Assembly (NCBI RefSeq): GCF_004337505.1
Contig: NZ_SJZI01000001.1
Location: 1-64,000, forward strand
Reading direction: 5' to 3'
Source: Flaviaestuariibacter flavus
GTDB lineage: Bacteria > Bacteroidota > Bacteroidia > Chitinophagales > Chitinophagaceae
Length of the DNA: 64,000 nucleotides
In this document: positions 23,258-64,000 of the stretch, one piece after another
How positions within the stretch are numbered: the stretch's first letter is position 1
Layout of the letters: the number at the start of each line of letters is the position of its first letter
The notes under the pieces: model-generated
Databases searched by the model: none
What the model was told of the DNA's origin: nothing
Seen by the model: only the letters and a program-made list of their open reading frames with translations
Program-made: the position numbers and the translations under genes

Positions 23258-23340
23258 CCGCGAAGCAGCCTTGCCGGGGCACTTCAGGACTTATTAAGCT
23301 ATTTATTCCTTGCGTCCGCATCAGTTGTTTCCAGCAATGT

Positions 23341-23402
23341 TAAAATAGCTTAACACTTTGACAATTCCCGGAATCACATCGCCGTTTTTAGGATGTTACT
23401 TG
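23341..23402 (+). promoter_or_regulatory. PUL box plus -7-like element upstream of susC
   Basis: A 25-base box at 23341-23365 (TAAAAT at 1-6, TTAAC at 10-14, GACAAT at 20-25) is followed by TTACTTG ending at 23402, with the G exactly 37 bases after the box end. The same layout occurs before the GH29 gene at 44465, GH97, GH36 and fucP. A palindromic ATTCCCGGAAT overlaps the box end at 23364-23374. Confidence 0.65.
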
Positions 23403-23472
23403 CATACACTTGCTAACCTCCCTGTCTGCATACTAACTGCTTTCATTAATCATTTCAAATACGGATTGCTAT

Positions 23473-26400
23473 ATGGAAAGACTACGTGTCAACCTTGCGC
23501 CGGCAAAGCGCATTAAATGCTGGCTGGCCTTTTTTGTCCTCTTACTGCTAACCGGGTCTGTTTCGGCCCAGAGTCTCCAGGTCGGGGGCACGGTTCGTGA
23601 TTCGAAGGGCAATCGCCTTCCCGGAATTTCTGTGACGGTTAAAGGCTCCAATGGGGGCAGCACCACCGACTCGCTGGGTGCATTCTCCGTTGCCGTTCCT
23701 TCCACGAACTCTGTACTGGTCTTCTCCGGCGTTGGCCTGGTTGACAAGGAGCAGGTTGTCGGCGACCGGCGCCTGCTGAATGTGACACTGACAGAAAAGC
23801 CCAACAACCTCGACGAAGTGGTGGTGATCGGTTACGGCCAGACCGTGCGCAAGCGCGATATCGGCGGCTCGATCGCTTCCGTGAGCAACAAGCAGATCCA
23901 GGAGCGCCAGCCGATCAACCTGTTTGACGCATTACAGGGACAGGCTGCCGGCGTACTGGTAATGAATGACAACGGCGAGCCGGGCGCACAGGGCTCTATC
24001 CAGATCCGTGGCGCCAATACTTTCAGCGCGGACGGTAATTCCCCGCTCTATGTTGTTGACGGGGTGATCACCGACAACGCAGCCGCCATCAATCCTAATG
24101 ATATCGAGCGCGTGGAAATCCTGAAGGACGCGGCTTCCGCATCCATCTATGGTGCCCGTTCTGCAGCTGGTGTTATCCTGATCACCACCAAGCGTGGTAA
24201 GGAAGGAAAAGCCCGTCTCGACGTGCAGTACTCCAAAGTATTTGGCTGGCTGGCGCATAAGCTGCCGGCGGCAAATGCCTCCGAACTGCGCTACTACCGC
24301 AAAATTCAGAACGGTAACCTGAACGGAACAAGCGGCTCCTTTACCGATTCGCTCAATCCTTCGTTCAACTCGGATAACGACTACCAGGACCTCCTTCTTG
24401 GCAATACCGGCAACCGCGATGACATCAAGATGAGCATCAGCGGTGCGCAGAAGACCCTGAATTACTACGCGAGCATGAACTTCATCAACGACCGGGGTAT
24501 TGCGCTCAATACCTGGAACAAGTCGGTCCAGTCGCGTATCAATACGGAGTTCCAGGCCTCGCCGAAATTCAAGTACACCACCAACTTGTCTTTCTATTGG
24601 TCCTTCGGCAACTTCACCAGCATCAACAATTCGCTAAAGCCCGTTTTTGACCGTCCCTCTTACCTACGGGTGTACAACCCGGATGGCAGCCTGACCAGTT
24701 ACCTCAACTCAAAGCGTAACCCGGTTGCCAATGCGCTCATGGAAGACAATACCCGTGAAACCTTCAAGGCGCAGATGAACCACCAGATCGACTTCCAGAT
24801 CTACAAAGACCTTAAGTTCACTACGGCGTTCAACGCCCAGCTGACGAACTTCCAGGGCTTCTATTTCATGCCCCGTTTTCTGGATGACAACGGCAATGAG
24901 AATATCGGCCGCAACGATCTGAACAAGAGCTTTGACTGGATGCTTCAGTCCTACCTGAACTACAACAGGAAGTTCGGCAGCCACAGCATTGTGGGTCTTT
25001 TGGGTGTATCGAAAGAGCGCGAAAAAGACGATCTCTTACACATGGAAGGAGAAGACTTCGTCATCGAGACCGCACACTATGTGAAGGGCGCCTTTATCAG
25101 CAACCTTACCAAGCAGAACGCAACCGCCGCAACCGTATCGACAGCTTCCGCTTTCGGACGCCTTATCTACAGCTTCCGCGACAAATACATCGTCCAGGGC
25201 AACTTCCGCCGCGATGCCACCTCGCGTTTCGCAGATGAGAGCCGCGTCGGTAACTTCTACTCCGGCTCACTGGCCTGGCGCTTTTCGTCCGAGCGCTTCA
25301 TGGACTGGGCCGGCAACTACCTCACCGATGGCAAGCTGCGTGCAAGCTGGGGACAGCTCGGTAACGACCGCGTAGGAAACTACGATTACCTCCAGATCAT
25401 GACGCAGGGTGCGAACAGCTACAACGGTGTGGCCGGCGCCTCGCTCAGCGGTACCCTTGGCAACCGCGACCTGAGATGGGAAGCCACCGAGCAGAAGAAC
25501 CTCGGGCTGGATCTTTCCTTCCTGAAAGGACGCGTCAGCCTGACTGCAGACTACTACGTCAAGACCACCCATGACCTGCTTTACAACAAAGCGCTGCCTT
25601 TTGAAGTGGGCTACAGCGGCGGTACGAAGGTGAACATCGGTACGATCGAAACCCGCGGCCTTGAATTCCAGCTCATGTCAACCCCGGTAGCTACCCGCAA
25701 CTTCACCTGGAACCTGAATGGCAATATCGCTTTCGAGCGTGGCCGTATCAAGAGCCTGGGCGGCGGACAGCCTTTCATCACCGGCAAATGGTATATTGAA
25801 GAAGGTGGCCGTCTGGGTAACTTCTATGGCTGGACCAACCTGGGTGTATATCCCACAGACGCACACAATGCATACGACCAGAACGGAAACAAGCTGACCC
25901 CGGTGGGACTGACGATCGTGCAAGGATCGACTCCCCGTAATTCTACTGTTACCGTGCAGGGTTACGAGCTGAACGGCAAGCCCTACACCGACAGCATTTA
26001 CCGCAAACGCGGCAATGGCCTTGTGCTCCTGGGCGGCGATACCGAGTGGGAAGACCTCAACAACGATGGTGTGATCGACGATAAAGACCGTCATATCATC
26101 GGCAACGCGCAGCCCGATTTTTACCTGGGTGTGATCAACACGTTCACCTACAAGCAGTGGAGCCTCAACGTAATCGTGAATGCCACCATTGGCGGCAAGG
26201 TGTTCAACAGCTTTAAGCAGGGTCTTACGAACAACAGCTCCTCCAACGGACCGGCCCTGCCCGAGGCTATTTACGGTGCCTGGGTTCGTCAGGGACAGGA
26301 AGGTGCCGTTTATCCCTATTTCCCCGATAAGGATACCCGCGGCAGCCAGCGTGGCAGCGGCAACAGCTACTTCCTGGAAGATGGCTCCTTCATCCGCCTG

Positions 26401-26622
26401 TCGAGCGCCCGCCTGACCTACCGCTTCAAGGCAGCAACCGCCAAGAAGGCTTTCCTGAATAATGCCAGCCTGTATGTATATGGCATCAACCTGCTCACCT
26501 GGACCAACTACTCCGGCTACGATCCTGAGTTCAGCTCCGGCAACGCGCTTCAGCTCGGTGACGATAACGGCCGTTATCCGAAGCGCCGCGAACTCGGCCT
26601 CGGTTTAAACATTCAACTCTAA
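23473..26622 (+). CDS. SusC-like TonB-dependent outer-membrane transporter
   Basis: A 1049-residue SusC/RagA-family receptor that imports oligosaccharides through the outer membrane with its SusD lid. Seen: a signal peptide ending VSAQ (about residue 33), a carboxypeptidase-regulatory-like domain (GTVRDSKGNRLPGISVTVKGS), NNLDEVVVIGYG before the plug, a plug with GVLVMNDNGEPGAQGSIQIRG and VEILKDAASASIYGARSAAGVILITTKRG, then a long beta-barrel ending in LGLGLNIQL. There is no N-terminal STN domain, so an anti-sigma signalling role is unlikely. The susD gene follows after 13 bases. Confidence 0.97.
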   Translation: MERLRVNLAPAKRIKCWLAFFVLLLLTGSVSAQSLQVGGTVRDSKGNRLPGISVTVKGSNGGSTTDSLGAFSVAVPSTNSVLVFSGVGLVDKEQVVGDRRLLNVTLTEKPNNLDEVVVIGYGQTVRKRDIGGSIASVSNKQIQERQPINLFDALQGQAAGVLVMNDNGEPGAQGSIQIRGANTFSADGNSPLYVVDGVITDNAAAINPNDIERVEILKDAASASIYGARSAAGVILITTKRGKEGKARLDVQYSKVFGWLAHKLPAANASELRYYRKIQNGNLNGTSGSFTDSLNPSFNSDNDYQDLLLGNTGNRDDIKMSISGAQKTLNYYASMNFINDRGIALNTWNKSVQSRINTEFQASPKFKYTTNLSFYWSFGNFTSINNSLKPVFDRPSYLRVYNPDGSLTSYLNSKRNPVANALMEDNTRETFKAQMNHQIDFQIYKDLKFTTAFNAQLTNFQGFYFMPRFLDDNGNENIGRNDLNKSFDWMLQSYLNYNRKFGSHSIVGLLGVSKEREKDDLLHMEGEDFVIETAHYVKGAFISNLTKQNATAATVSTASAFGRLIYSFRDKYIVQGNFRRDATSRFADESRVGNFYSGSLAWRFSSERFMDWAGNYLTDGKLRASWGQLGNDRVGNYDYLQIMTQGANSYNGVAGASLSGTLGNRDLRWEATEQKNLGLDLSFLKGRVSLTADYYVKTTHDLLYNKALPFEVGYSGGTKVNIGTIETRGLEFQLMSTPVATRNFTWNLNGNIAFERGRIKSLGGGQPFITGKWYIEEGGRLGNFYGWTNLGVYPTDAHNAYDQNGNKLTPVGLTIVQGSTPRNSTVTVQGYELNGKPYTDSIYRKRGNGLVLLGGDTEWEDLNNDGVIDDKDRHIIGNAQPDFYLGVINTFTYKQWSLNVIVNATIGGKVFNSFKQGLTNNSSSNGPALPEAIYGAWVRQGQEGAVYPYFPDKDTRGSQRGSGNSYFLEDGSFIRLSSARLTYRFKAATAKKAFLNNASLYVYGINLLTWTNYSGYDPEFSSGNALQLGDDNGRYPKRRELGLGLNIQL

Positions 26623-26635
26623 AACAACGATTGCA

Positions 26636-28225
26636 ATGAAGAAAATACTTGCTTTTACCAGCTTTGTGCTATTGCTGACACTCGGTGCCTGCAAGAAGCT
26701 TGTGGATGAGAAACCGCTTTCCGACGGCACACTCGAACAGTTCTTCCGCAACAAATACGATGCGGATGCGGCCATGGCTGGTATGTACGGCGCTTTCCAG
26801 ACAACCATGATCGGGGAATCGCAGTTCAATAACCGGATCACCTACTGGGGCGATGCACGTTCGGACAATATGATGAACAGCACGCCGAACAACAACTCAA
26901 ACGAGATCCATTTCAACAGCCTCACTCCGAACAACACGTTCGCCGACTGGGGCCCGCTCTACACGGTCATCGGACGTGCGAACCTCAACATCGCGAAGTT
27001 CCCGGAGATCAATAATTACGCGGGCGCCAGCGAGCGTATCTCCGAAACTACGCTGAAAAGCTACCTCGCCCAGTGCTACGCTATGCGTGCGATGTGCTAC
27101 TTCTACATCCTGCGCGTATGGGGTGATGCACCGATCTGGACAACTCCTTATCTGAGTCTCACCGAAAATGCTGCGCGCCCCCGTGCTCCGAAAACCGAAG
27201 TGCGCGCCCAGATCATCGCCGACCTGCAGCAGGCTTACGACCTTACGGCAAAGGGAGCTACTTCCACCACCTGGTATATTGGCGAAGGTGCTATCGCCGC
27301 GATGATGGCGGACGTATACATGTGGCGCAGTCATGATGAGGCGATCCAGCCCGATTATCCCAACGCCATAATCTGGTTCAAGAACCTGTTCAAGGCGAAA
27401 GGCCCTACCGGCCGCACCTATAATGCTTCCGGTACCACCACTACCGGCTCCGGTGGCACCAGTGCCGACATTGCTGCGACTGCCGACTGGAAGTCGATCT
27501 TTACCAACCCGGCTGCCAATATCGAAACTATCTGGACCATTCACTGGAACGTAAACGCCAATGGCTGCCCCTGTATGATGGGTGTTTCCAGCACGGTGAA
27601 CAATACGCCCATGCGCACGGAGAAATCACTCTACACCGGAACCTCCTCCTGGCTGCGCGCCGGCCTCGATATCCGTGCCAAGCAAAGCATCGACTCGGCC
27701 AAGAGCGACAACTTCGACCGCGTGTTGAAGTGGTACGGTCCCTCCGGTTATACCAACGCCAAATCCACCTACCTCACACGTGCCCAGTCGGATGCCGTGG
27801 TTGGTACCGATAAGCCTGTTTACGTGCCGGTGTACCGCTTGTCCGACATGTTCCTGCTGTATGCGGAGGCACTCAACAAAACAGGTGACGCTGCCAACGC
27901 ATTACGTTACCTCAACCTGGTGCACCAGCGCGCAACACTGCCGGCATATACAGCGGCACAGCTCACGACGCAAGACCAGATGGAGAATGCCATTCTTGAC
28001 GAGCGTCGCTGGGAGCTGTTTGCAGAAGGAAAGCGCTGGTTTGACCTGACCCGTACCCATAAGGTACTCCAGGCAATGGACCAACTGTTAAAGGACCGTC
28101 AGCTTGCTGCCGGCGCCACCCAGATCGGCTGGGGAACCGACAAGCGTCGTTATGTGTGGCCCCTGCACCGCAACGTGCTGAATGCAAACCCCCTCCTCGT
28201 GCAAAATCCGCCTTACTCCGAATAA
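26636..28225 (+). CDS. SusD/RagB-like surface glycan-binding lipoprotein
   Basis: A 529-residue lipoprotein. The signal peptide has the lipobox TLGAC (Cys19). It is followed by the SusD N-terminal helices (YDADAAMAGMYGAF, GRANLNIAKFPE, QCYAMRAMCYFYILRVWGDAP) and the conserved C-terminal block ILDERRWELFAEGKRWFDLTRTH. It forms the lid over the SusC barrel and binds the glycan at the cell surface. It lies between susC and a second lipoprotein gene in one transcription unit. Confidence 0.97.
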   Translation: MKKILAFTSFVLLLTLGACKKLVDEKPLSDGTLEQFFRNKYDADAAMAGMYGAFQTTMIGESQFNNRITYWGDARSDNMMNSTPNNNSNEIHFNSLTPNNTFADWGPLYTVIGRANLNIAKFPEINNYAGASERISETTLKSYLAQCYAMRAMCYFYILRVWGDAPIWTTPYLSLTENAARPRAPKTEVRAQIIADLQQAYDLTAKGATSTTWYIGEGAIAAMMADVYMWRSHDEAIQPDYPNAIIWFKNLFKAKGPTGRTYNASGTTTTGSGGTSADIAATADWKSIFTNPAANIETIWTIHWNVNANGCPCMMGVSSTVNNTPMRTEKSLYTGTSSWLRAGLDIRAKQSIDSAKSDNFDRVLKWYGPSGYTNAKSTYLTRAQSDAVVGTDKPVYVPVYRLSDMFLLYAEALNKTGDAANALRYLNLVHQRATLPAYTAAQLTTQDQMENAILDERRWELFAEGKRWFDLTRTHKVLQAMDQLLKDRQLAAGATQIGWGTDKRRYVWPLHRNVLNANPLLVQNPPYSE

Positions 28226-28257
28226 GGCGACCCCAATCATCTCTTAAGAACTTACGC

Positions 28258-29082
28258 ATGAAAAAGACATTCCTTCCTTTCTTCTCTGCTATACTGATCG
28301 CCGCTGTTACCCTTTCGGGTTGCTACAAGCTGCAGAAGGACTACAAATACGAACCTTCCACGCTCGATCCCTCCATCAATATGTCGGCGAAGGATTTTCT
28401 GCTTACCCGTGGCGTAGCAGGCGCTGGTTCCGACTCCGTTTTCAAATGGATGCAGCTGGGCCTTGAATACGCCGAGATCGATCTCGCCGAGTTCGAGCGC
28501 CCCGGCCGGACCTTTATCTTTCTGCACAACAACGCTATCCGCGCTACTTCGGGCAGCGGTGCCACACTCAAGGTAAGCGGTGGCTTCTTCTTCGACTACC
28601 CGATCTATGTAAAAGATGCCCTGGGCAACCATATCAAGTCTTTGATCGACCCGACCGCCGACTCTGTCCGTCCGGCACTGACCTGGAGCGATTACCCGAA
28701 GCAGCTGGTAAAGAACTATTTCTCCTACCTGATCCTGCAGGGTGAATACTCCTTCGATAACCTGGGTGTCAACAATACTTCTGTTCCGACGCTGCTGGCG
28801 CCGGGTGCAACGGCTAACCCGAATGATTCCAAGCTCGGATGGGTAGTAACAAGGACGACACCGAATCCCGATGCCGCTTCTGCATCCATCATTGTCTTCA
28901 ACCAGGCTACCGGCACCGGCTTCGATCCCGAAGGCAAGATCAACCTGAAGCTGATCAACAACCAGAACGCACCGATCAATGTGAACGACCGCACAGATGA
29001 TCGCACCGCCGGATATATCGCAACCAACGGCAAGGTGCATGTGTACGACAAGACGGTTCACCCGTTCCGCTACAGCTACTAA
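28258..29082 (+). CDS. Surface lipoprotein of the PUL (SusE-position, fasciclin-like tail)
   Basis: A 274-residue lipoprotein. The signal peptide has the lipobox TLSGC (Cys21). I do not recognise the family firmly. The start SAKDFLLTRG..., the FLHNNAIRA segment and the end YIATNGKVHVYDKTVHPF resemble fasciclin-type (FAS1) repeats of surface lipoproteins encoded beside SusCD. Its position third after susC-susD is that of SusE/surface glycan-binding proteins. The start at 28258 was chosen at the signal peptide. A terminator-like hairpin follows. Confidence 0.7.
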   Translation: MKKTFLPFFSAILIAAVTLSGCYKLQKDYKYEPSTLDPSINMSAKDFLLTRGVAGAGSDSVFKWMQLGLEYAEIDLAEFERPGRTFIFLHNNAIRATSGSGATLKVSGGFFFDYPIYVKDALGNHIKSLIDPTADSVRPALTWSDYPKQLVKNYFSYLILQGEYSFDNLGVNNTSVPTLLAPGATANPNDSKLGWVVTRTTPNPDAASASIIVFNQATGTGFDPEGKINLKLINNQNAPINVNDRTDDRTAGYIATNGKVHVYDKTVHPFRYSY

Positions 29083-29126
29083 TTGCAGCGGGTTTTCGTA
29101 CCATGCTTGATCATAGATCATTACTC

Positions 29127-29158
29127 GAAAGCCGGCTGTGACAAGCCGGCTTTCTTTA
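29127..29158 (+). terminator. Terminator-like hairpin between the SusCD cassette and the enzyme run
   Basis: The eleven-base-pair stem GAAAGCCGGCT/AGCCGGCTTTC with a six-base loop is followed by TTTAA. The T tract is short and interrupted, so partial readthrough is plausible. That would make the transport genes more abundant than the enzyme genes. Confidence 0.75.
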
Positions 29159-29192
29159 ATTCAACCGGTACCGATCCGGTTAACCGAACACC

Positions 29193-31484: not shown

Positions 31485-31486
31485 CT

Positions 31487-33940: not shown

Positions 33941-33949
33941 TCTATACCC

Positions 33950-36499: not shown

Positions 36500-36517
36500 C
36501 CATTGAACGTGATTCTC

Positions 36518-39846: not shown

Positions 39847-39876
39847 AACGAACACTCTAATAGAAAAGCTTTGGCA

Positions 39877-42927: not shown

Positions 42928-42955
42928 TTCATCAGCCACCACAATCCGAAAAACA

Positions 42956-44320: not shown

Positions 44321-44355
44321 AAGCCGTTTTTCCTGCCGTCATCGCGTCTCGGCGT

Positions 44356-44417
44356 TAAAATCATTGAATAAACGGCCAATCTGCTGCGGCTGCATCGCAG
44401 TAAAAAGTAGTTAGTTG
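44356..44417 (+). promoter_or_regulatory. PUL box plus -7-like element upstream of the GH29 gene
   Basis: The 25-base box at 44356-44380 (TAAAAT, TTGAAT, GCCAAT at the same positions as the other copies) is followed by TTAGTTG ending at 44417, with the G 37 bases after the box end. It marks an internal promoter within the enzyme run, after a 144-base gap. Confidence 0.65.
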
Positions 44418-44464
44418 CAACCTGGCAGCCGGGCTTCCTCGGTCCGGGTAAAATGCAATGCTGT

Positions 44465-45889
44465 ATGAAAAAATTTCTGCTCGCCGTCAGCGGCCTCTTC
44501 TTCCTGAGCCTTTCCGCGCTCGCACAGGATACCTCCAAAAATGCCCGCATGCAATGGTGGCGCGAAGCGCGCTTTGGCATGTTCATCCACTGGGGCGTGT
44601 ATTCGCAGTGGGCAGGTGTATACCACGGCCACCAGCAGGCTCGTGGTGGTGCCGAGTGGATCATGAACCGCTCCAAAATTCCCGTGGCCGAATACCAGCA
44701 GCGGGCACGCTCCTTCAACCCTACGGCCTATGATGCCGACGCCTGGGTGCGCCTCGCCAAGGAGGCGGGTATGAAGTATATCATCATCACCGCCAAGCAC
44801 CACGACGGCTTTGCCCTGTTCAATTCCAAAGCGAGCAAATGGGACATCACCGATGCCACCGCCTATGGCAAAGACCTGCTGAAGCCGCTGGCAGAAGCCT
44901 GCCGCCGTCATGGTATGAAGCTCGGATTTTATTACTCGCAGGCACAGGACTGGAACAACCCCGGGGGCTCTGTGGCGCGTAAGGAAATGCGCGAGGGATG
45001 GGCCAACCCCGACTCTGCCCGCATCGATGCCTACACGGCCGCCCATAAGGGGCACTGGGATCCCGCGCAGGAGACCCGCAGCTTCGAGCAATACATCGAC
45101 GAAGTGGCGGTGCCCCAGGTACGCGAGCTCATGACCAACTATGGCGAGGTAGCCGTGCTGTGGTGGGATACGCCCACCGGCATGACCGATGAGGCCGCCG
45201 GCAAGCTGAAGGCCGCCCTGGCTTCTCAGCCGATGATCATTACCAACGACCGATTGAAGCGCCCCAACTTCCCGGGCGATACCAAAACCCCGGAGCAGAA
45301 GATCCCGACACAGGCCGAGCTCGACGGACAGGACTGGGAAACCTGCATGACCATGAACGGCAGCTGGGGCTACAAAAGCTGGGACGACAAGTGGAAGCCG
45401 ACGGAAACGCTGATTCGCAACCTGGTGGATATTGCCTCTAAAGGCGGCAACTACCTGCTTAATATCGGCCCGAAGGAAGATGGTACCATACCCCAGGAAA
45501 GCATCGGCCGCCTCAAGCAAATCGGTGCCTGGATGAAGGTGAACGGCGAAGCGATCTACGCCTCCAAGGCCAGCCCGCTTGCACCGCTGCCCTGGGGCCG
45601 CGTGACGCGAAAGGAAGGTGCAAAAACGACAACTCTTTATTTCTCCGTATTCGACTGGCCGCAGGACGGGCGCCTGCTGGTGCCCGGCATCAGCAAGGAG
45701 GTGGTTTCGGCAAGCATACTGGGCGGCGGTAAGGTAAAAACCGAGCTGACCCCGGAAGGCCTGAAGCTGCAAGTGCCTGCTACAGCACCCGACCCGGTAG
45801 CCTCCGTCATTCGCGTTACCTTCCGCGGGCAGTTTGAGAACGTGAACCTGCCGGGCAAACAAAAGATGAAAACCGGGGCGCTCGATTAA
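44465..45889 (+). CDS. Glycoside hydrolase family 29 alpha-L-fucosidase
   Basis: A 474-residue secreted enzyme: signal peptide ending ALAQ, RFGMFIHWGVYSQWAG, YIIITAKHHDGFALFNS, LGFYYSQAQDWNNP, the nucleophile Asp235 in AVLWWDTPTG, and SKGGNYLLNIGPKEDGTIP. A single GH29 catalytic domain with a C-terminal beta-sandwich. It is homologous to the N-terminal half of the fusion at 39877 but not a recent copy. The start at 44465 (MKKFLL) is preferred over an ATG four codons upstream. It begins a new transcription unit preceded by the shared 25-base box. Confidence 0.94.
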   Translation: MKKFLLAVSGLFFLSLSALAQDTSKNARMQWWREARFGMFIHWGVYSQWAGVYHGHQQARGGAEWIMNRSKIPVAEYQQRARSFNPTAYDADAWVRLAKEAGMKYIIITAKHHDGFALFNSKASKWDITDATAYGKDLLKPLAEACRRHGMKLGFYYSQAQDWNNPGGSVARKEMREGWANPDSARIDAYTAAHKGHWDPAQETRSFEQYIDEVAVPQVRELMTNYGEVAVLWWDTPTGMTDEAAGKLKAALASQPMIITNDRLKRPNFPGDTKTPEQKIPTQAELDGQDWETCMTMNGSWGYKSWDDKWKPTETLIRNLVDIASKGGNYLLNIGPKEDGTIPQESIGRLKQIGAWMKVNGEAIYASKASPLAPLPWGRVTRKEGAKTTTLYFSVFDWPQDGRLLVPGISKEVVSASILGGGKVKTELTPEGLKLQVPATAPDPVASVIRVTFRGQFENVNLPGKQKMKTGALD

Positions 45890-45912
45890 GTGGTCCCTGA
45901 TAATACTATCCG

Positions 45913-47508: not shown

Positions 47509-47512
47509 TATC

Positions 47513-49054: not shown

Positions 49055-49105
49055 TATTTTTTCGCATCGATCGATTATCAATCGCCCTGTTTCTCAATCC
49101 CGGCT

Positions 49106-53637: not shown

Positions 53638-53647
53638 GATAACTGTT

Positions 53648-56304: not shown

Positions 56305-56363
56305 GTGCGGATCGTTAGTGCCATTAATGTTCGGTAAAAAAACAGAGCGGCGCGCGCCCTTGC

Positions 56364-56425
56364 CAGAATTGCTGAATAATTGGCCAATGGCGCAAAAGGC
56401 GGATGAAGGAATAATAATTCACTTG
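56364..56425 (+). promoter_or_regulatory. PUL box plus -7-like element upstream of GH97
   Basis: The 25-base box at 56364-56388 (AGAAT, CTGAAT and GGCCAAT in register with the other copies) is followed by CACTTG ending at 56425, with the G 37 bases after the box end. It lies in the divergent gap between paralog C and GH97. Confidence 0.6.
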
Positions 56426-56462
56426 CGCCACAAGAGCGCTCCAGCAAAATCGCTTTAGCTAT

Positions 56463-58343
56463 ATGAAACTGCGCACCCTTACTGTCTTTGTCGTTGCTTG
56501 CTGCCTGGGCATAGCAGCCCATGCGGCTGATACCATCACCGTTAAAAGTCCGGATGGCAACCTGCGCTTCCAGCTCTTTCTGCGCCAGCACCAACTGCAC
56601 TTTTCGATTACCCGCGGTGGGCAGCGGATTGTTGCGGCTTCGCCGATCGGCCTCGGTGTTAATGGTACGGACCTGTGCCGGGGCGTGCACACCGGTGCCG
56701 CTGCCTTTTACCGCGGTAATGAACGCTATGAGCTCGCCGGAGCACATGCCGTGGCCAGCAACTCCTTTACCGGGGCGCGCGTGCCGGTTGTGGGGCGGGG
56801 CGGATGGAGCATGAGCCTCGATATCCGGGTCTTCAACGACGGTGCGGCTTACCGCCACCTGGTAACGGGCAAGGCATCCGAACTAATTCCCGAAGAGAAT
56901 ACCGTTTTCCGCATGGCTCCCGGCAGCACGGTCTGGTATCACGACCTGAACATGCATTACGAAAGCGTGCATGTCAAAAAGAAGCTGGATGAAATTGCGG
57001 CAGGAGCGTGGCTGGCCCCACCGGCGGTTTTTAAAACGCCGGATGGCAATTATGCGGCGATCACTGAAGCGGCGCTGCTCCGATACCCGGGCATGGCCCT
57101 TCAAAGCGATGGCAGCGGCGGCGCTGTCCTGCGCCTGGCGCACGAGCAGCCCACATCCTACCCTTACAAATTGCGCTACAGCCCGGAGGATACGATGCGC
57201 CTGCGGCAGCCCGCCCGCCTTGCGGGAAACTCGTTTCAAACGCCCTGGCGCGTGGTTATTGTCGGTGCCAACCTGAATACGCTCGTGAACAACGATATCG
57301 TAAGTAACCTCAATGCAGCACCGGACCGGAAGCTGTTTCCACAGGGAGCGCAAACGCCCTGGGTGCGGCCTGGCCGGGCGGTGTGGAAGTACCTCGATGG
57401 CGGGGGCGAGGGTACGCCGGAAGTAATGCGGCACTTTACCGATGGAGCAGCTGCCCTTGGCTTCGAGCACAATATCCTTGAAGGGTTCTGGAGCCGCTGG
57501 TCGCGCGCCGAGCTGAAAGACCTGGTGGATTATTCGCGGGCCAAAGGCGTTGGCATATGGCTCTGGAAGCACTCCAAAGGCCTGCGCACCCGCGCTTCCC
57601 GCGACTCTTTTTTTACGATGTGCAGCGAGCTGGGAATTGCCGGCGCCAAGATCGATTTCTTCGATCACGAGGCTAAGGAGGTGATCGATCTTTATGAGGC
57701 CATCCTTACGGAGGCAGCCGCCCATCACCTGCTCCTCGATTTTCATGGCGCCAACAAGCCTACGGGGCTGATGCGAACCTTCCCGAACGAGCTCACCGCA
57801 GAGGCGGTAAAAGGTATGGAGGCCAGCAAGCTCACCGACCGCGCCACCCATGGAACCACCATCCCATTTACGCGTTTGATTGCAGGTCCTGCAGAATATA
57901 CGGTAGTGCATTTTGGCGCGCGCCGCGCCAATACTACCTGGGCGCACCAGGTAGCGAGCGCCGCCATCCTCAGCAGCCCGCTGCTTACCTACGCCGCAAA
58001 TCCCGATAGCCTGCTCGCGAGTCCTGCCGTGAATATCATCCGTGCCATTCCGCCGCATTGGGATGAAACCCGGGTGCTGCCGCCCTCCGAGATCGGCGAA
58101 ATAGCCGTATTTGCAAGGCGAAAAGGTAAGGAGTGGTTTCTTGCCGTCATGAACGGTACTACGGCCCGGCACATCCGCATCCCGCTTTCCTTTCTGAAGG
58201 GCAGCTACGGCGCCGAAATGGCTCTTGATGTTCCGGGGCAGCCGGCTGCCCTGCGTTTGCAGCAGAAACGCCTTTCCGGGGCTGATACGATTGAACTGGA
58301 CCTTGTTTCCGGAGGCGGATTCATCGCCCGCTTTGCCCGATAG
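56463..58343 (+). CDS. Glycoside hydrolase family 97
   Basis: A 626-residue secreted enzyme with the GH97 order: an N-terminal beta-super-sandwich (SPDGNLRFQLFL, FNDGAAYRHLV), a TIM barrel (PGRAVWKYLDGGGEG, GFEHNILEGFWSRW, GVGIWLWKHSKG, GAKIDFFDHEAKEVIDLY, LLLDFHGANKPTGLMRTFPNELTAEAVKGME) and a C-terminal beta domain. The KIDFFDHE segment, with Asp at the nucleophile position, points to the retaining branch, whose known members are alpha-galactosidases, rather than the inverting alpha-glucosidase branch. First gene after the shared 25-base box; the six-hairpin gene follows by 26 bases. Confidence 0.92.
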   Translation: MKLRTLTVFVVACCLGIAAHAADTITVKSPDGNLRFQLFLRQHQLHFSITRGGQRIVAASPIGLGVNGTDLCRGVHTGAAAFYRGNERYELAGAHAVASNSFTGARVPVVGRGGWSMSLDIRVFNDGAAYRHLVTGKASELIPEENTVFRMAPGSTVWYHDLNMHYESVHVKKKLDEIAAGAWLAPPAVFKTPDGNYAAITEAALLRYPGMALQSDGSGGAVLRLAHEQPTSYPYKLRYSPEDTMRLRQPARLAGNSFQTPWRVVIVGANLNTLVNNDIVSNLNAAPDRKLFPQGAQTPWVRPGRAVWKYLDGGGEGTPEVMRHFTDGAAALGFEHNILEGFWSRWSRAELKDLVDYSRAKGVGIWLWKHSKGLRTRASRDSFFTMCSELGIAGAKIDFFDHEAKEVIDLYEAILTEAAAHHLLLDFHGANKPTGLMRTFPNELTAEAVKGMEASKLTDRATHGTTIPFTRLIAGPAEYTVVHFGARRANTTWAHQVASAAILSSPLLTYAANPDSLLASPAVNIIRAIPPHWDETRVLPPSEIGEIAVFARRKGKEWFLAVMNGTTARHIRIPLSFLKGSYGAEMALDVPGQPAALRLQQKRLSGADTIELDLVSGGGFIARFAR

Positions 58344-58369
58344 ATTGTTTTCATTAACTACGTAACACT

Positions 58370-60421
58370 ATGACCTTTTTGTTTCGCGCCTGTGCTTTTC
58401 TTTCCTTTTCCCTTCCCTTCGCGTCGGAGGCGCAGGAGCTCACGCTCCCGCGCCAGCAGGATCGCTGGACCCTCGCGCCCGATGGCAGCATCGAGTGGAA
58501 GATCGACGAGCGCCTGCCACACAGCGATCATGTAGAAATGGCCGGCGAGAAGATCGCCCTCTGGATGCAATACGGCGTTGACACGAGCGGACGTGCACAA
58601 ACCACGCGCACCCTTGTTTTTCCAACGTATCGCCTGCTGCCGCAACGCACGATCGCTCACATGATGTACGACGTGAAGGACGCCGAGCTGCCGCGGGTGC
58701 TCGTCAATGACCGTTTGTTCCGAAGCGGGGTGTTCAATGCTGCCGTGCAGCCGGATGCGCCGGAAAAGGTGACCAGCATCCGCCAAAAAGGCATCCTGGA
58801 GATCAACAGCGAGGTAGGACGCGACCGGAGCATTCGCCTGCGCCGCCGCTTTTACCCCTCCGTTGATCTGCCGCTGGCCGTGGAGCAGTGGGTGTTCTTC
58901 AACGAAGGGAAGACGCCGGCAAAAATTGAGATGGAAGCCCTTCGCCGCGAGTCGGCACCTGCTGCATCGCGTACTAAAGACGGTCCGCATCGCTTTGTGA
59001 TCAGCACAATCCATGACGGCGAATACACCGTAACTCCCGGCGACTCGGTAGCCTTTGCCATCACCTACCAGGCCGTGCGCGGTACCGGGCAACCGCTGCT
59101 TGCCGACGTGAACGGGGAGCTTCAGAAACGCCGCAACCGCATCGCGCAGATCCTGGCACCCTTGCAGCTGGAAACACCCGACCCGGTGCTGAATACCATG
59201 TTTGCCTTTGCAAAGATCCGTGCCACGGAAAGTATCTACAACACGAAGGGGGGGTACCTGCACGGTCCGGGCGGATTGCGCTATTATGCAGCGATCTGGG
59301 CCAACGACCAGGCCGAATACGTGAATCCCTATTTCGCCTATGCCGGCGATCCGATCGGCAATAAGTCGGCGATGAATGCCTACCGCTGGTTTGCGCGGTA
59401 TATGAACCCCGATTACAAGCCGATCCCGAGCTCCATCATTGCCGAGGGCGACGGAACCTGGCATGGGGCAAAGGACCGGGGCGATATGGCCATGATCGCT
59501 TATGGCGCCAGCCGCTATGCGCTGGCCTACGGCAACCGCGATTCCGCTAAGGTTTTGTGGCCGCTGATCGAATGGTGCCTGGAGTACCTGAAGCGCCAGC
59601 TCAATGAACAGGGCGTGGTGAAATCGAACAGCGACGAGCTGGAGAACCGCTTCCCTGCCGGCACGGCCAACCTCAACACGAGCTCGCTTTATTACGATGC
59701 GCTGCAGTCTGCATCGCTGCTGGGCCGCGATTTGGGAATGCCGAAGGCACAGGTTGAGGACTATCAGCGTCGTGCCCGCGAAATGCACACGAACATCGAA
59801 AGCTACTTCGGCAAAACGGTAGAGGGCTTTGCCACCTACCGCTATTATGCCGGTAACGATACGCTCCGCGCCTGGATCACGACGCCGCTTACCGTCGACA
59901 TTTTCGATCGAAAGGAAGGTACCATTGCTGCACTGTTCTCTCCGCGCCTGTGGACGGAAGACGGCCTCGCCTCGCTGGCAGGCAACCGCACTTTCTGGGA
60001 CCGCTCCACGCTCTATGGTCTGCGCGGTGCGTTCGCTGCCGGGGAAACGGAAAAGGCCCTGCGCTTTTTGTCGTACTACTCACAGCGCCGCCTGCTGGGC
60101 GAGCACGTGCCCTATGCGGTAGAAGCCTACCCCGAGGGCAACCAGCGGCACCTGTCGGCGGAGAGCGGCCTGTATGCCCGTATTTATACGGAAGGGATGT
60201 TTGGCTATCGTCCTACAGGCCTGCGCTCCTTCAACCTTACGCCGCGCCTGCCAGCGGCCTGGGAGCACATGGCACTGCGCCGTTTCAGTGCGGGTGAACA
60301 GCAGTTCGATATCGAGGTAAGCCGCTCCGGCCGCGACAAGCTGGCGGTTCGGATCGTGCAGGCCGGGAAAGCAAAAACGTATACGATCCGTGATGGCGCC
60401 ACCCTTGCGGTGAAGTTATAG
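58370..60421 (+). CDS. Six-hairpin glycosidase-like protein, family unclear
   Basis: A 683-residue secreted protein: a signal peptide ending SEAQ, an N-terminal beta-sandwich (about 25-265), an (alpha/alpha)6 barrel (about 275-610) and a beta-rich C-terminal domain. Barrel segments include YAAIWANDQAEYVNPYFAYAGD, MNPDYKPIPSSIIAEGDGTWHGAKDRGDMAMIAYGASRYALA, VVKSNSDELENRFPAGTANLNTSSLYYDAL and PYAVEAYPEGNQRHLSAESGLYARIYTEGMFG. Acidic residues in ANDQAEY and NSDELENRF are candidate catalytic residues. It resembles amylo-alpha-1,6-glucosidase/rhamnosidase-like clans in general but I cannot place it in a family. Confidence 0.72.
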   Translation: MTFLFRACAFLSFSLPFASEAQELTLPRQQDRWTLAPDGSIEWKIDERLPHSDHVEMAGEKIALWMQYGVDTSGRAQTTRTLVFPTYRLLPQRTIAHMMYDVKDAELPRVLVNDRLFRSGVFNAAVQPDAPEKVTSIRQKGILEINSEVGRDRSIRLRRRFYPSVDLPLAVEQWVFFNEGKTPAKIEMEALRRESAPAASRTKDGPHRFVISTIHDGEYTVTPGDSVAFAITYQAVRGTGQPLLADVNGELQKRRNRIAQILAPLQLETPDPVLNTMFAFAKIRATESIYNTKGGYLHGPGGLRYYAAIWANDQAEYVNPYFAYAGDPIGNKSAMNAYRWFARYMNPDYKPIPSSIIAEGDGTWHGAKDRGDMAMIAYGASRYALAYGNRDSAKVLWPLIEWCLEYLKRQLNEQGVVKSNSDELENRFPAGTANLNTSSLYYDALQSASLLGRDLGMPKAQVEDYQRRAREMHTNIESYFGKTVEGFATYRYYAGNDTLRAWITTPLTVDIFDRKEGTIAALFSPRLWTEDGLASLAGNRTFWDRSTLYGLRGAFAAGETEKALRFLSYYSQRRLLGEHVPYAVEAYPEGNQRHLSAESGLYARIYTEGMFGYRPTGLRSFNLTPRLPAAWEHMALRRFSAGEQQFDIEVSRSGRDKLAVRIVQAGKAKTYTIRDGATLAVKL

Positions 60422-60439
60422 TTGGAAAGAAATACCATA

Positions 60440-60468
60440 AAAAAGGCAGGCGTATCGCCTGCCTTTTT
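60440..60468. terminator. Bidirectional terminator between the six-hairpin gene and GH36
   Basis: A perfect thirteen-base-pair stem AAAAAGGCAGGCG/CGCCTGCCTTTTT with the loop TAT ends both convergent units. Confidence 0.95.
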
Positions 60469-60484
60469 CGTTTATGCTGTATCG

Positions 60485-62638
60485 CTACTCCGCTACCAGC
60501 TCATATATATTGCTGGTAAGCGGGTTGGCGCGGCCGGGTGCCAGGTTGAGGCCGATGGTCATAAGATGTTCGCCGGTGAACACTTTGTTGTTGTCCGGTT
60601 GTGTCGACCTGGTGCCCGGAATGAGGTTGACCTCCCGCAGGCGGTAGCGGGCCGCCGGATCGAGGCCCTGCAGCTTCACGCGGCCAAACATGTCCTTGCG
60701 GCGCGGCGTGGTCAGGTAATGATACAGCACAGCGTGGCGCTTGTCTTCGCTGGCATACATCAGCACCGCCCGCGGCTCGTCGTAAGGCGACACAAGGCGG
60801 TAGAGATCGCCCTTCCAGATCACGTCCGACAGGCGTTTGTAGGTAGCTACCGCCTCGCGGCTGAACGCCACCTCTTCGGGCGTGAAGCTGTTGACGCGGA
60901 TATCGTAGCCCAGCTTGCCCATCATGGCCACATCGGTGCGGAACTTGAGCGACTGGTTCTTTCCCATGCTGGTGACGTGGGCCGACATCGTGATGGCAGG
61001 AAAGAAGTAGGAGTAGCCCCATTGGATGAAGATCCGCTCCAGACCATCTGTATTATCGCTCGGCCAGAACTCGGTAAAATATTTCAGCGCCTCGTAATCG
61101 GTGCGGCCACCGCCGCCGGCGCAGAGCATAATGGGAACCTTCGGATGCCGCGCACGGATGCGCTGCATAATTTTATAGAGACTGCGGGTGTAGTCGACGT
61201 AAAGGTGCGACTGCTTTTCTTTAAGATAGGGCGAATAGGCATTGGTCATGCTGCGGTTGCAGTCCCACTTGATAAAGGCAAGGTCGGGATGCTTTGTCAG
61301 CAGGTCGTCCACCACCGAAAACACGAAATCCTGCACCGCGGGGTTCACGAGGTCGAGCACGAGCTGGTTACGACCGTAGTTTTCCTCGCGGTTCGGCAGC
61401 TTCAGGATCCAGTCAGGATGCTTTTCGTACAGCTCACTTTTGGGGTTCACCATCTCGGGCTCGAGCCAGATTCCAAACCCGATGCCTTTTTGCTTTGCTT
61501 CTTTTACCAGGTAGCCGATGCCGCTGGGCAGCTTGGACCGGTCTTCCTGCCAGTCGCCAAGGCCCGCCTTGTCATCGTTTCGCGGGTATTTATTTCCGAA
61601 CCAGCCGTCGTCCAGCAAAAAGAGGTCGGCGCCGATCTTCCTGCCCTCGTCAAACAGCTCCACGAGGCGCTGCTCGTTGAAGTTCGTGTGGGTGGCTTCC
61701 CAGTTGTTGAGGAGCACATAACGGCTGCCGTTGCCGTCAAGCACCGCGTAATTGCGGGCCCAGCGGTGCAGGTTGCGGCTGGCCTGTCCTTTACCCTGCG
61801 CGGAGAAGGTAAAGATGAAGTCGGGCGTGCGGAATGTTTCGTTGGGCTGCAGGTGGTATTCGGAGGCAAAGGGATTGATGCCCGAGCGCACCCGCAGGCC
61901 TTCGCGCTGATCCACCTCGAACGTGTACTGGTAGTTGCCGGTCCACGCAAGGCTGCCGGCGATGAGCTCGCCGCTGGTTTCGGTGGATGGCCCGTTGAGC
62001 GACACGATGAAGGTTTGGGTCTGGTAGAAGTTGGTGCGGGTACCAAGCTTGCTTTCGAGGGTCTTGATGCCATTGGTGAGCTTTTCCTCGACCAGCTGCA
62101 CCTCGCGCGCCCAGTCGCCATGAAATTGCGTCAGCCAGTATTCGCCGGCGTTGAAATGCAATTGCGCCGAAGCGTATTGCGTCAGCAACACCGGCTTTTT
62201 CTCGGTGTTGCGGATCTCCGTCCAGGCTTTGATCACGTCCTCATTTTCATATGCCGTATAATATAGCGTTACCTCGGTACCGTACACCGGATCGCGCAGC
62301 AGGATGCTGGTGGTCTGGCTACCTGCGGCGCCGCTGCTTTTGTGCGACACATACCGCAGGTCGAGTGATGGGTTGCCGTCGGCGTGTACCATGCGGATGG
62401 CCGGCTCGAACTGGTTTTCCATACCGGCGGTAAGGTAGGCTTCGCGGCCGCCGCTCATCGCGGCGAGCTCGGTTGCAGGCAGTTTTGTTCCGAGGTAGGA
62501 TTGCAGAAGGCGCTTGTTACCGGAGACTGTAAGCTGAAGTACGCTGTTGCGCGTTTCCACGGTAATGGGGCCCACGGTCTGTGCGCGGAGCAGCAGCGGC
62601 ACCAGGCCCGCCAGGAGCAGGCTAAGTAAGTTTTTCAT
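60485..62638 (-). CDS. Glycoside hydrolase family 36 alpha-galactosidase
   Basis: A 717-residue secreted enzyme of the melibiase/GH36 type: signal peptide ending LRAQ, the N-terminal sandwich (GNPSLDLRYVSH), then the barrel with LLNNWEATHTNFNE, LFLLDDGWFG, GDWQEDRSKLPSGI, FGIWLEPEMVNPKS, NQLVLDLVNPAVQ, the nucleophile in FIKWDCNRSM, CAGGGGRTDYEAL and the acid/base in WPSDNTDGLERI. It releases alpha-linked galactose. The start at 62638 is the ATG at the signal peptide. Transcribed from its own box-bearing promoter behind the AraC gene. Confidence 0.96.
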   Translation of the reverse strand: MKNLLSLLLAGLVPLLLRAQTVGPITVETRNSVLQLTVSGNKRLLQSYLGTKLPATELAAMSGGREAYLTAGMENQFEPAIRMVHADGNPSLDLRYVSHKSSGAAGSQTTSILLRDPVYGTEVTLYYTAYENEDVIKAWTEIRNTEKKPVLLTQYASAQLHFNAGEYWLTQFHGDWAREVQLVEEKLTNGIKTLESKLGTRTNFYQTQTFIVSLNGPSTETSGELIAGSLAWTGNYQYTFEVDQREGLRVRSGINPFASEYHLQPNETFRTPDFIFTFSAQGKGQASRNLHRWARNYAVLDGNGSRYVLLNNWEATHTNFNEQRLVELFDEGRKIGADLFLLDDGWFGNKYPRNDDKAGLGDWQEDRSKLPSGIGYLVKEAKQKGIGFGIWLEPEMVNPKSELYEKHPDWILKLPNREENYGRNQLVLDLVNPAVQDFVFSVVDDLLTKHPDLAFIKWDCNRSMTNAYSPYLKEKQSHLYVDYTRSLYKIMQRIRARHPKVPIMLCAGGGGRTDYEALKYFTEFWPSDNTDGLERIFIQWGYSYFFPAITMSAHVTSMGKNQSLKFRTDVAMMGKLGYDIRVNSFTPEEVAFSREAVATYKRLSDVIWKGDLYRLVSPYDEPRAVLMYASEDKRHAVLYHYLTTPRRKDMFGRVKLQGLDPAARYRLREVNLIPGTRSTQPDNNKVFTGEHLMTIGLNLAPGRANPLTSNIYELVAE

Positions 62639-62669
62639 ACAGCAAAGAATTAGTGGCTGAGATTGGATG

Positions 62670-62732
62670 CAAAGCAAGAAAGGGCCGGCATAGCGATGCC
62701 TCCGGCCTTTGCCCAATCATTCACTCATTTTG
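62670..62732 (-). promoter_or_regulatory. PUL box plus -7-like element upstream of GH36
   Basis: On the minus strand the box runs from 62732 to 62708 (AAAAT, GTGAAT and GGGCAAA in register with the other copies; positions 9, 21 and 25 differ from the consensus). TTGCTTTG ends at 62670, so the G is 38 bases after the box end. The terminator-like hairpin at 62679-62710 lies between the two elements. Confidence 0.55.
62679..62710 (-). terminator. Hairpin after the AraC gene, inside the GH36 promoter
   Basis: On the minus strand AAAGGCCGGAGGCAT faces ATGCCGGCCCTTT, giving a long GC-rich stem with one or two bulges and a tetraloop, followed by CTTGCTTT. It could end the AraC transcript. Confidence 0.65.
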
Positions 62733-62744
62733 GCATTGCGCGCA

Positions 62745-63617
62745 TTACTGCTTCGAAACAAATTCTTTCTGATAGGCGAGGGGGCTTTTGCCGGTGATGG
62801 CCTTGAAATATTTGTGGAAGCTCGTAAAGTTGTTGAAGCCGCTCTCATAGCAAAGCCGCTTGATGCATTCGTTATTCTCGATGAGCAGCTTGCAGGCATG
62901 CCCCACGCGTAGCTCAATGAGGAACTGCGAATAGGTTTTGCGGGTGCGCGACTTGAAGTAGCGGCAGAAGGAGTTGGGGCTGATATTGGCCACTTCGGCG
63001 ATCTCTTCGAGCTGGATCTTGCGCTTGAAGTTTTTCACCGAGTATTCATAGATGGCGTTGATGCGATCGTTTTCCGCCTCCAGGTGATCGGGCTTGAAGC
63101 CGATAGAGGAAAGGGTCACGAGTTGCTTGCAGTTGGCGATCACCGAGAGGGCTTCCATGAGCAGGATGATACGCTGCGGGCCTTCTGCATGCAGTAATTG
63201 CTCAAGGAGCTCGGCCACGCGCTCACGGGTGCCGCCGGTCACCTGGATGCCGCGTTTTGCTTTTTCCAGCACGGTGCGGATGGCGGCATTCTCCGGGAGG
63301 TCAAGAAAGTCGGCTCCCCAGAATTGCTCCTCGAAATGAGATACGCGCACATCGGCCTGCGCCGGGGCGGGGTCGTCGAAATAAGCATCGTCGAAGCGCC
63401 AGTAATGCGGGAGGTTGGCTCCAACCAGCACCACGTCGCCTGCCTGGAAATGCTTGATGCTGTCGCCGATGAACTGCGTGCCTTCGCCTTGCTTGAAATG
63501 AATCAGTTCAATTTCGCGGTGATAATGCCAGCGGTTATTGACATGCGGAACCAGGTCGCGGCGTACACTAAAGGATCGGTCCGGGCCCTTGGATACCTTG
63601 AAAAGTTGAGGTCTCAT
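62745..63617 (-). CDS. AraC-family transcriptional regulator
   Basis: A 290-residue regulator. The N-terminal cupin sensor (NRWHYHREIELIHFKQGEGTQFIGDSIKHFQAGDVVLVGANLPHYWRF, about residues 27-76) is followed by a C-terminal double helix-turn-helix (about 190-290): IQLEEIAEVANISPNSFCRYFKSRTRKTYSQFLIELRVGHACKLL and IKRLCYESGFNNFTSFHKYFKAITGKSPLAYQKEF. It is divergent from fucP and upstream of GH36. Both neighbours carry the 25-base box, whose two half-sites ten bases apart suit an AraC-type reader. The effector may be fucose or another released sugar. Confidence 0.94.
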   Translation of the reverse strand: MRPQLFKVSKGPDRSFSVRRDLVPHVNNRWHYHREIELIHFKQGEGTQFIGDSIKHFQAGDVVLVGANLPHYWRFDDAYFDDPAPAQADVRVSHFEEQFWGADFLDLPENAAIRTVLEKAKRGIQVTGGTRERVAELLEQLLHAEGPQRIILLMEALSVIANCKQLVTLSSIGFKPDHLEAENDRINAIYEYSVKNFKRKIQLEEIAEVANISPNSFCRYFKSRTRKTYSQFLIELRVGHACKLLIENNECIKRLCYESGFNNFTSFHKYFKAITGKSPLAYQKEFVSKQ

Positions 63618-63662
63618 TCAGCTTTTTTGACTAACAATCGTTGGAAAATACGGATATGATGC

Positions 63663-63692
63663 CAAATTAGCTTATTAATTTGTTCTATCAAA
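63663..63692 (-). promoter_or_regulatory. Probable promoter of the AraC gene
   Basis: On the minus strand TTTG (63692-63689) and TAATTTG (63669-63663) are 19 bases apart, close to the Bacteroidota consensus. The -7 box has one base fewer between TA and TTTG than usual. Confidence 0.45.
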
Positions 63693-63745
63693 ATAATTTC
63701 ACATGCGTTTCCGGGTGGTTTTTTGGCGCCGGTTTGGAGGCATGC

Positions 63746-63808
63746 TAAAATAGTTGAACGAATAGACAATCGCCTGTATCGTAAAAAAAGCCTTTCTTTC
63801 TTTTTTTG
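63746..63808 (+). promoter_or_regulatory. PUL box plus -7-like element upstream of fucP
   Basis: The 25-base box at 63746-63770 (TAAAAT, TTGAAC, GACAAT) is followed by TTTTTTTG ending at 63808, with the G 38 bases after the box end. The first eight bases (TAAAATAG) are identical to the susC copy. Confidence 0.65.
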
Positions 63809-63868
63809 TAATCGCGGCATCTGCGAGCATCGATCCATGTCCCTACCTGCCGCTCCAATTCTTGCTGT

Positions 63869-64000
63869 ATGAAACAAAACCGGAGCTACACGATTCCAAT
63901 TATCCTGGTCACTTCCCTTTTCTTTCTCTGGGCCTTCCTGCATAATATCAACCCGATCCTGATCCCGCACCTGCGTAAAGCCTGCCAGCTTTCCGATACA
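63869..64000 (+). CDS. fucP: FucP-type L-fucose:H+ symporter, 5' part only
   Basis: 44 codons are visible before the window ends. MKQNRSYTIPIILVTSLFFLWAFLHNINPILIPHLRKACQLSD matches the first membrane helix and following loop of the FucP branch of the major facilitator superfamily, including the conserved FFLWAFLHN.N..LIPH segment. It imports a monosaccharide, most likely L-fucose, across the inner membrane, in line with the three fucosidase genes and the divergent AraC regulator. Glucose/galactose MFS relatives are the main alternative, as only the first helix can be read. Confidence 0.85.
   Translation, partial: MKQNRSYTIPIILVTSLFFLWAFLHNINPILIPHLRKACQLSDT

Follow-up and report, generated by a model that had tools for sequence, protein, structure and literature searches.

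A recurrent upstream box as the probable operator of an AraC-type fucose regulator in Flaviaestuariibacter flavus

The window analysed here is a stretch of 64,000 nucleotides from Flaviaestuariibacter flavus (Chitinophagaceae; contig NZ_SJZI01000001.1, positions 1 to 64,000). It carries a polysaccharide utilization locus in which one short box stands upstream of five genes, and this box and its probable reader are the subject of the present analysis. The five genes code for a susC-like TonB-dependent receptor (23473..26622, plus strand), a glycoside hydrolase family 29 (GH29) alpha-L-fucosidase (listed frame 44453..45889, plus), a GH97 protein (56463..58343, plus), a GH36 protein (60485..62638, minus, start codon at 62638) and the L-fucose:H+ symporter FucP (63869..64000 in the window, plus, the gene running to contig position 65164). 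Family matches agree with these five assignments of the first-pass annotation, FucP scoring over the TIGR00885 cut-off. The gene for an AraC-type regulator (araC; 62745..63617, minus), the proposed reader of the box, lies between the GH36 gene and fucP.

The annotation had listed five boxes of 25 bases, four on the plus strand and that of GH36 on the minus strand, each followed at a fixed distance by TTG. Every letter of the five was found in place on direct check, and the TTG ends 37, 37, 37, 38 and 38 bases past the boxes of susC, GH29, GH97, fucP and GH36, the GH36 box having an additional TTG at 33. The boxes are real, but 25 bases proved too short, as a G stands two bases ahead of the first base in all five copies. 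The element is therefore described here as a core of 29 bp, numbered -3 to 25. Copy 1 (23337..23365, plus) lies upstream of susC, and a matching box is found before susC homologues in G003, G019 and other genomes. Copy 2 (44352..44380, plus) precedes the GH29 gene and has a counterpart before GH29 in G003. Copy 3 (56360..56388, plus) lies upstream of GH97, which is followed by a gene for a 683-aa protein; copy 4 (62708..62736, minus) lies upstream of GH36; and copy 5 (63742..63770, plus) precedes fucP and an L-fucose gene set that continues past the window. All five copies are exact matches, and copies 3, 4 and 5 have counterparts in relatives, those of copy 4 standing before GH36.

When the positions shared by the boxes were used as a rule, five matches were obtained in the window, all of them the boxes, and 30 first-order Markov sequences of 64 kb gave no match. 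In the F. flavus genome (3,958,893 bases in 52 contigs, 85.78% complete) the rule gave nine matches, five of which are the boxes, and one match was obtained with the pattern read backwards. A looser consensus with at most two mismatches gave 22 matches in this genome, and its backwards control 12; specificity is thus limited to the strict form, and the loose scan was dropped as too noisy. The sharpened pattern GYYARAATNNNTKAANNNNNNGNCAA, with at most one mismatch, had six matches and none backwards: the five boxes without mismatch, and C42:838583, before an alpha-L-fucosidase gene, with one. Hundreds of equally good matches over the genome, which the annotation had named as the outcome that would speak against its motif, were thus not seen. 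A model built from 12 foreign sites ranked the same six sites highest in the genome (E 6.4e-6 to 0.10), the foreign sites having themselves been chosen for likeness to the boxes and 150 of 728 candidates having been scored.

Core geometry and predicted promoters

A logo was made from 66 distinct sites, consisting of 18 first sites and 48 later matches of at least 17.5 bits. G(-1), A2, A12 and G20 are present in all 66, and conservation spans -3 to +25. Because the sites were chosen by score, this invariance is partly selected; the TTG spacing played no part in the choice. A TTG is found at 37 or 38 in 49 of the 66 sites (44 of the 60 foreign ones), and any other offset occurs in five sites at most. 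The position of the core is thus fixed relative to the predicted promoter, as for a class II-like activator site. The upstream flank (-15 to -5) carries no more than 0.12 bit against up to 1.89 bit at core positions, so that no longer duplicated block is seen.

An AraC-type reader contacting two half-sites ten bases apart had been proposed at first. With the larger set of sites a repeat of about 21 bp, from the conserved G(-1) to G(20), is the better reading. Self-similarity of the logo is best at offset 21 (column-permutation p 0.015), yet the score is negative (-8.25; best of 13), which means that the two halves are only partly alike. The TGAA patch, earlier taken as one half-site, is best read as the second contact of the first half, with a second half that would resemble the first only in part. 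A further TGAA patch at positions 30-33, apparent in the 18 sites, faded at 66 and was given up.

On the strength of the TTG spacing, -7 elements are predicted for the promoters of susC (GTTACTTG; 23395..23402, plus, its G 37 bases after the box), GH29 (GTTAGTTG; 44410..44417, plus), GH97 (TTCACTTG; 56418..56425, plus), GH36 (TTGCTTTG; 62670..62677, minus) and fucP (TTTTTTTG; 63801..63808, plus). Such elements are mostly TTTATTTGC-like or TTAGTTGCA-like rather than TAnnTTTG. TAnnTTTG is the published Bacteroidota -7 consensus (PMC7366714). In 84 upstream regions of the F. flavus genome it (TANNTTTG) was found 12 times against 3.15 in shuffles, and eight times on the reverse strand. At five sites of other genomes (L088:18496, L039:18143, L041:19709, L051:8166 and L191:1222) TAATTTAG was observed at 48, about one helical turn past 37/38. 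The box is best read as a putative activator operator upstream of a promoter.

The regulator and its company across genomes

The AraC protein has 290 aa. Its C-terminal helix-turn-helix (HTH_18) part matches PF12833 at residues 205-283 (E 2.2e-19) and PF00165 over the cut-off, which places it in the AraC/XylS family. The N-terminal part is cupin-like, PF07883 scoring 26.5 bits, slightly below the cut-off of 27.2. As the protein matches these two parts only and shows no kinase or receiver match, it is not a hybrid two-component system (HTCS) protein. Neither is it a FucR of the GntR, DeoR or IclR type, since among the best 25 of its 28 matches the DNA-binding ones are AraC-type only. In the 23 frames scanned at the locus (20705 to 63617) it was the sole match to a DNA-binding regulator family.

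Co-occurrence was examined in 294 genomes of the family, of which 35, F. flavus included, have an AraC relative of at least 67% identity and 139 have fucP. With a model of the five window copies a box was found in 26 of the 294 genomes at E <= 0.02. When F. flavus is excluded, this corresponds to 17 of the 34 genomes with a close AraC relative and 8 of the 259 without, about five being expected at that E-value. Of the fucP carriers, 32 have a close AraC relative and 17 of these a box, against a box in 1 of the 106 others (Fisher p 3.7e-12, counts that ignore shared ancestry), so that the box follows the regulator and not the transporter. Strict filters were used and 23 candidates were scored per genome, for which reason misses are expected. 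As to the eight matches without a close AraC relative, that of G079 (83% complete) resembles a true site with TATTG at 37; G126, whose AraC relative has 57% identity, has a good core without TTG at 37; four lie inside stop-free frames of 244 to 823 aa, and those of G241 and G061 lack the TTG at that offset.

The weight-matrix scan of related genomes, which the first-pass annotation had suggested as a check, gave the same picture: boxes again stand upstream of orthologues, in company with the AraC gene. AraC relatives of 75-81% identity occur in G003, G005 (listed as the same genus as F. flavus) and G019. Named genera with a relative of the protein are Pseudobacter, Paraflavisolibacter, Pseudoflavitalea and, at 62-64% identity, Parapedobacter. 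In the loci of these relatives boxes stand before orthologues of fucP, susC, GH29, GH36, GH97 and the 683-aa gene. Another 40 stretches, 779,295 bases in all, were searched with an 18-site matrix; 33 were araC loci and seven had been taken because of a box match. At 14 bits or more 62 matches were obtained, against two for the column-reversed matrix. Of the 33 araC loci, 26 have a match and 24 a match with TTG at 36-39; GH29 boxes with TTG at 36-39 number eight in this tally. Between araC and a fucP-like gene all five Parapedobacter loci carry an altered box, TAATATAGCTGAATACATCGCTAAT being one example, and no box was found upstream of araC in three Pedobacter loci. In G019 (L090:9063-9150) two full boxes 51 bp apart precede a susC homologue. 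Some candidates were set aside. L014:6527 (C46) scored 23.3 with the foreign-site matrix, overlaps an opposite-strand frame of 208 aa and has no TTG at 37/38. Among the first 38 genomes the window-made model also matched G001 (C665, E 8.6e-4), G028 (0.0076) and G020 (0.023), none of which has a close AraC relative. These matches fall within stop-free frames (299, 364 and 130 aa) and were put down to chance.

The first half of the core occurs twice on its own between araC and fucP, the two copies facing each other with their 5' ends. Half-site D (ATGCCAAATTAGCTTATT; 63659..63676, plus) is 42 bp upstream of the araC start codon, points to fucP and has identical letters in G003 and G076. Half-site S (TAGTCAAAAAAGCTGAAT; 63616..63633, minus) overlaps the araC start codon with its last two bases. 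In 36 close-AraC genomes, F. flavus included, D-type half-sites at p <= 0.01 were found in 18 and S-type in 15, about 0.4 being expected for each when ancestry is ignored. Their positions relative to the araC start cluster, D mostly at 44-49 or 60-67 and S at -19 or -22/-23; a box-like site over the araC start was first seen as matrix matches in L184 and L196. How far the araC half-site stands from the box differs between genomes, from about 84 to 209 bp. With distances so variable, phased looping between the two is unsupported, and the clustering relative to the start would point to self-control of araC instead.

Target genes, the L-fucose gene set and a start-codon context

Past fucP, and outside the window, there are genes for an altronate-dehydratase-like (UxaA-like) protein, a short-chain dehydrogenase/reductase (SDR), LutA-like and LutB-like proteins, a fumarylacetoacetate (FAA) hydrolase, an Amidohydro_2 protein, a second SDR and a GH3 protein. 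LutAB have a role in lactate. By family only, this set matches oxidative L-fucose breakdown. In Campylobacter jejuni L-fuconate has been hypothesized as the substrate of an altronate-hydrolase-type enzyme, and FucX serves as fucose dehydrogenase (PMC12566272); a title in the reference list of PMC6946681 names an amidohydrolase-superfamily L-fucono-lactonase, and the last two L-fucose steps were assigned to COG0179 and COG1028 proteins (PMC5507952). In five relatives a frame of 552 aa of the altronate-dehydratase type stands behind a box; one of these frames, together with related genes of L187 and L192, was compared with Pfam. Judged by family, the target genes code for L-fucose uptake and breakdown, as expected of an L-fucose regulon: fucP, the gene set behind it and the GH29 fucosidases.

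The sixth site of the genome, C42:838583 (L119:18582-18610), has a near-perfect core and stands before an alpha-L-fucosidase gene (PF01120) that is unlinked to the locus and adjoins a gene scoring over the beta-galactosidase GalB cut-off. It is likely a member of the regulon, out of register, which suggests that the regulon reaches past the window and to contig C42. A site before the GalB gene itself (C42:835927, L119:15928-15956; R2 E 0.87) is a weak candidate only.

The 683-aa protein downstream of GH97 (58370-60421, plus) matches nothing in Pfam at E <= 1, and at E <= 0.01 no relative of solved structure was found. Five relatives, chosen for standing behind a box, are 63-69% identical. Its structure model is of low confidence (mean predicted local distance difference test score, pLDDT, 52) and suggests beta-rich ends flanking a helical middle. 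The protein is a candidate glycoside hydrolase.

A common context, GCTRTATGRAA, surrounds the start codon of each of the five boxed genes and has no other occurrence in the window on either strand: 23468..23478 (plus) for susC, 44460..44470 (plus) for GH29, where it covers an internal ATG of the listed frame that is the likely true start, 56458..56468 (plus) for GH97, 62633..62643 (minus) for GH36 and 63864..63874 (plus) for fucP. GCTRT precedes the ATG in none of 12 other gene starts examined in the window. With a leading T (TGCTRTATGRAA) the context has seven matches in the genome and none backwards; four are at boxed genes (GH97 has A there), and one of the other three opens a long frame. 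The context is out of register with the box, and in relatives GCTRTATG opens a frame at 4 of 51 boxed sites. Being this rare behind boxes, it was not counted as part of the operator, and the simplest guess is a shared translation-start context.

Proposed mechanism, rival readings and known systems

The data make it quite probable that the box is the operator of the neighbouring AraC-type fucose activator, which would unite L-fucose catabolism with the polysaccharide locus in a single regulon. The box would be bound in direct-repeat fashion by an AraC-type dimer carrying L-fucose or a breakdown intermediate as inducer; we infer this inducer from the target genes only. The TTG would close a -7 element recognized by the primary sigma factor. 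If transcription begins about 7 bases past it, the core would cover roughly -73 to -45, a position from which an AraC activator can contact RNA polymerase. Bound AraC would recruit the polymerase at five units or more, and glycan cutting, sugar uptake and L-fucose breakdown would come on together. The lone half-sites at araC, one of them over the start codon, may let AraC limit its own synthesis.

Several observations weigh against an AraC operator of this kind. Half of the close-AraC genomes (17 of 34) gave no box match under the strict filters and with 23 candidates per genome, the co-occurrence counts take no account of shared ancestry, and 9 of the 33 araC-centred loci lack a site with TTG at 36-39. 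The two halves are only partly alike for a dimer's direct repeat, and positions 30-33, where the fourth contact of a dimer site is expected, carry 0.1-0.2 bit each. The spacing is not uniform either, as the C42 fucosidase site has its TTG at 29, not 37, and five of the 66, which precede GH97 or the 683-aa gene, show TAATTTAG with its end at 48. The aligned -7 element is TTTATTTGCA, in which T replaces the second-position A of TAnnTTTG in 43 of 49 cases, and it thus departs from the Bacteroidota sigma-ABfr consensus; an off-consensus -7 element without a visible -33 element would nevertheless fit a promoter that requires an activator. Finally, gaps of about 345 bp after fucP and about 600 bp before the FAA hydrolase gene leave room for more promoters, and the fucose genes may be split over several transcripts.

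It could be that another regulator of the locus or genome reads the box and AraC merely co-travels. The close-AraC genomes without a box match speak for this, and it is the strongest of the alternatives, though an improbable one: among fucP carriers the box keeps company with AraC and not with the transporter (17/32 against 1/106), the 21-bp geometry and the half-sites at the araC start codon suit an AraC-type protein and its self-control, and AraC is the only DNA-binding regulator matched in the 23 frames. That AraC binds the box as a repressor, to be released by sugar, is a shade less probable again. FucR of Bacteroides thetaiotaomicron and the IclR-type FucR of C. jejuni are repressors (PMC12566272). 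However, in 49 of the 66 sites about 37 bases separate the end of the core from the TTG, and the core does not overlap the predicted -7 element, whose off-consensus form would be expected of an activator-dependent promoter. Single-component AraC-family regulators of Caldicellulosiruptor bescii, with tandem-repeat sites upstream of mapped promoters, were likewise read as activators (PMC8579813).

The fixed distance to a downstream element could also suggest that the box is itself the core promoter element of an alternative, extracytoplasmic function (ECF) sigma factor. This is very unlikely: the core extends over 29 bp, at araC its first half is also found by itself in either orientation, and none of the 23 scanned frames matched a sigma factor. 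Moreover, 37 bases between the parts far exceeds the spacer of -35 and -10 elements. Chance likeness, or leftovers of one duplicated upstream region, can practically be dismissed: the five boxes agree at only 12 of 37 aligned positions, but no match arose in 30 random windows and conservation collapses in the flank.

An AraC operator, as preferred here, would give a regulon linking a polysaccharide utilization locus to its end-product pathway a candidate operator and reader and a likely inducer. Being short and following one regulator from genus to genus, the motif may permit regulon prediction in many unstudied Bacteroidota, and it directs attention to unassigned genes, such as the one for the 683-aa protein (58370), as contributors to fucose-glycan breakdown. 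A wider proposal, to which we give somewhat less than an even chance, is that Chitinophagaceae and Parapedobacter possess an undescribed family of AraC-type fucose regulators. In it one cytoplasmic sensor would run glycan capture, cutting, uptake and oxidative breakdown, bypassing the periplasmic sensors of Bacteroides; it would be throttled by its own head-to-head half-sites, and the private start-codon context would hint at translational co-control.

An AraC-type activator with a direct-repeat operator is a kind of system already known. E. coli AraC uses the direct half-sites I1 and I2, about 21 bp apart upstream of the promoter, and O sites near araC; the present system is alike in its putative direct half-sites at about 21 bp and its extra sites at araC, but fixed phasing is not seen here. 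In the Bacteroides HTCS, as is proposed here, an AraC-type reader meets direct repeats two helix turns apart before units of polysaccharide loci, with a mean of 21 bp between tandem sites (PMC3878776). Unlike the HTCS, the protein described here has 290 aa and a cupin-like sensor part without kinase or receiver match, is predicted to sense sugar in the cytoplasm and has a monosaccharide pathway in its regulon. A monosaccharide pathway together with a transporter is also controlled by RhaR, the AraC-type rhamnose activator of Bacteroides (PMC3870299, PMC3878776), and AraC-type rhamnose regulators show the 21-bp periodicity that is proposed for the present motif (PMC3870299). The RhaR regulon is a single operon (PMC3878776), whereas here at least five units including a glycan locus are involved and the predicted sugar is L-fucose.

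Regulators named FucR resemble the present one in controlling fucP or L-fucose breakdown and differ in protein family. That of E. coli is a DeoR-type activator and that of C. jejuni an IclR-type repressor (PMC3878776, PMC12566272); the B. thetaiotaomicron repressor is GntR-type according to PMC3878776 and DeoR-type according to PMC12566272. FucR is also named for C. bescii (PMC8579813) and for mat consortia (PMC5507952), in passages that give no family. Among the open-licence papers listed, none concerned an AraC-type fucose regulator as judged by title or abstract start. In B. thetaiotaomicron the levels are run separately, HTCS and SusR serving the loci and FucR and RhaR one monosaccharide operon each (PMC3878776). 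As far as these open-licence papers show, what is new here is the motif, an AraC-type fucose regulator, and one regulon that joins a polysaccharide locus to L-fucose catabolism.

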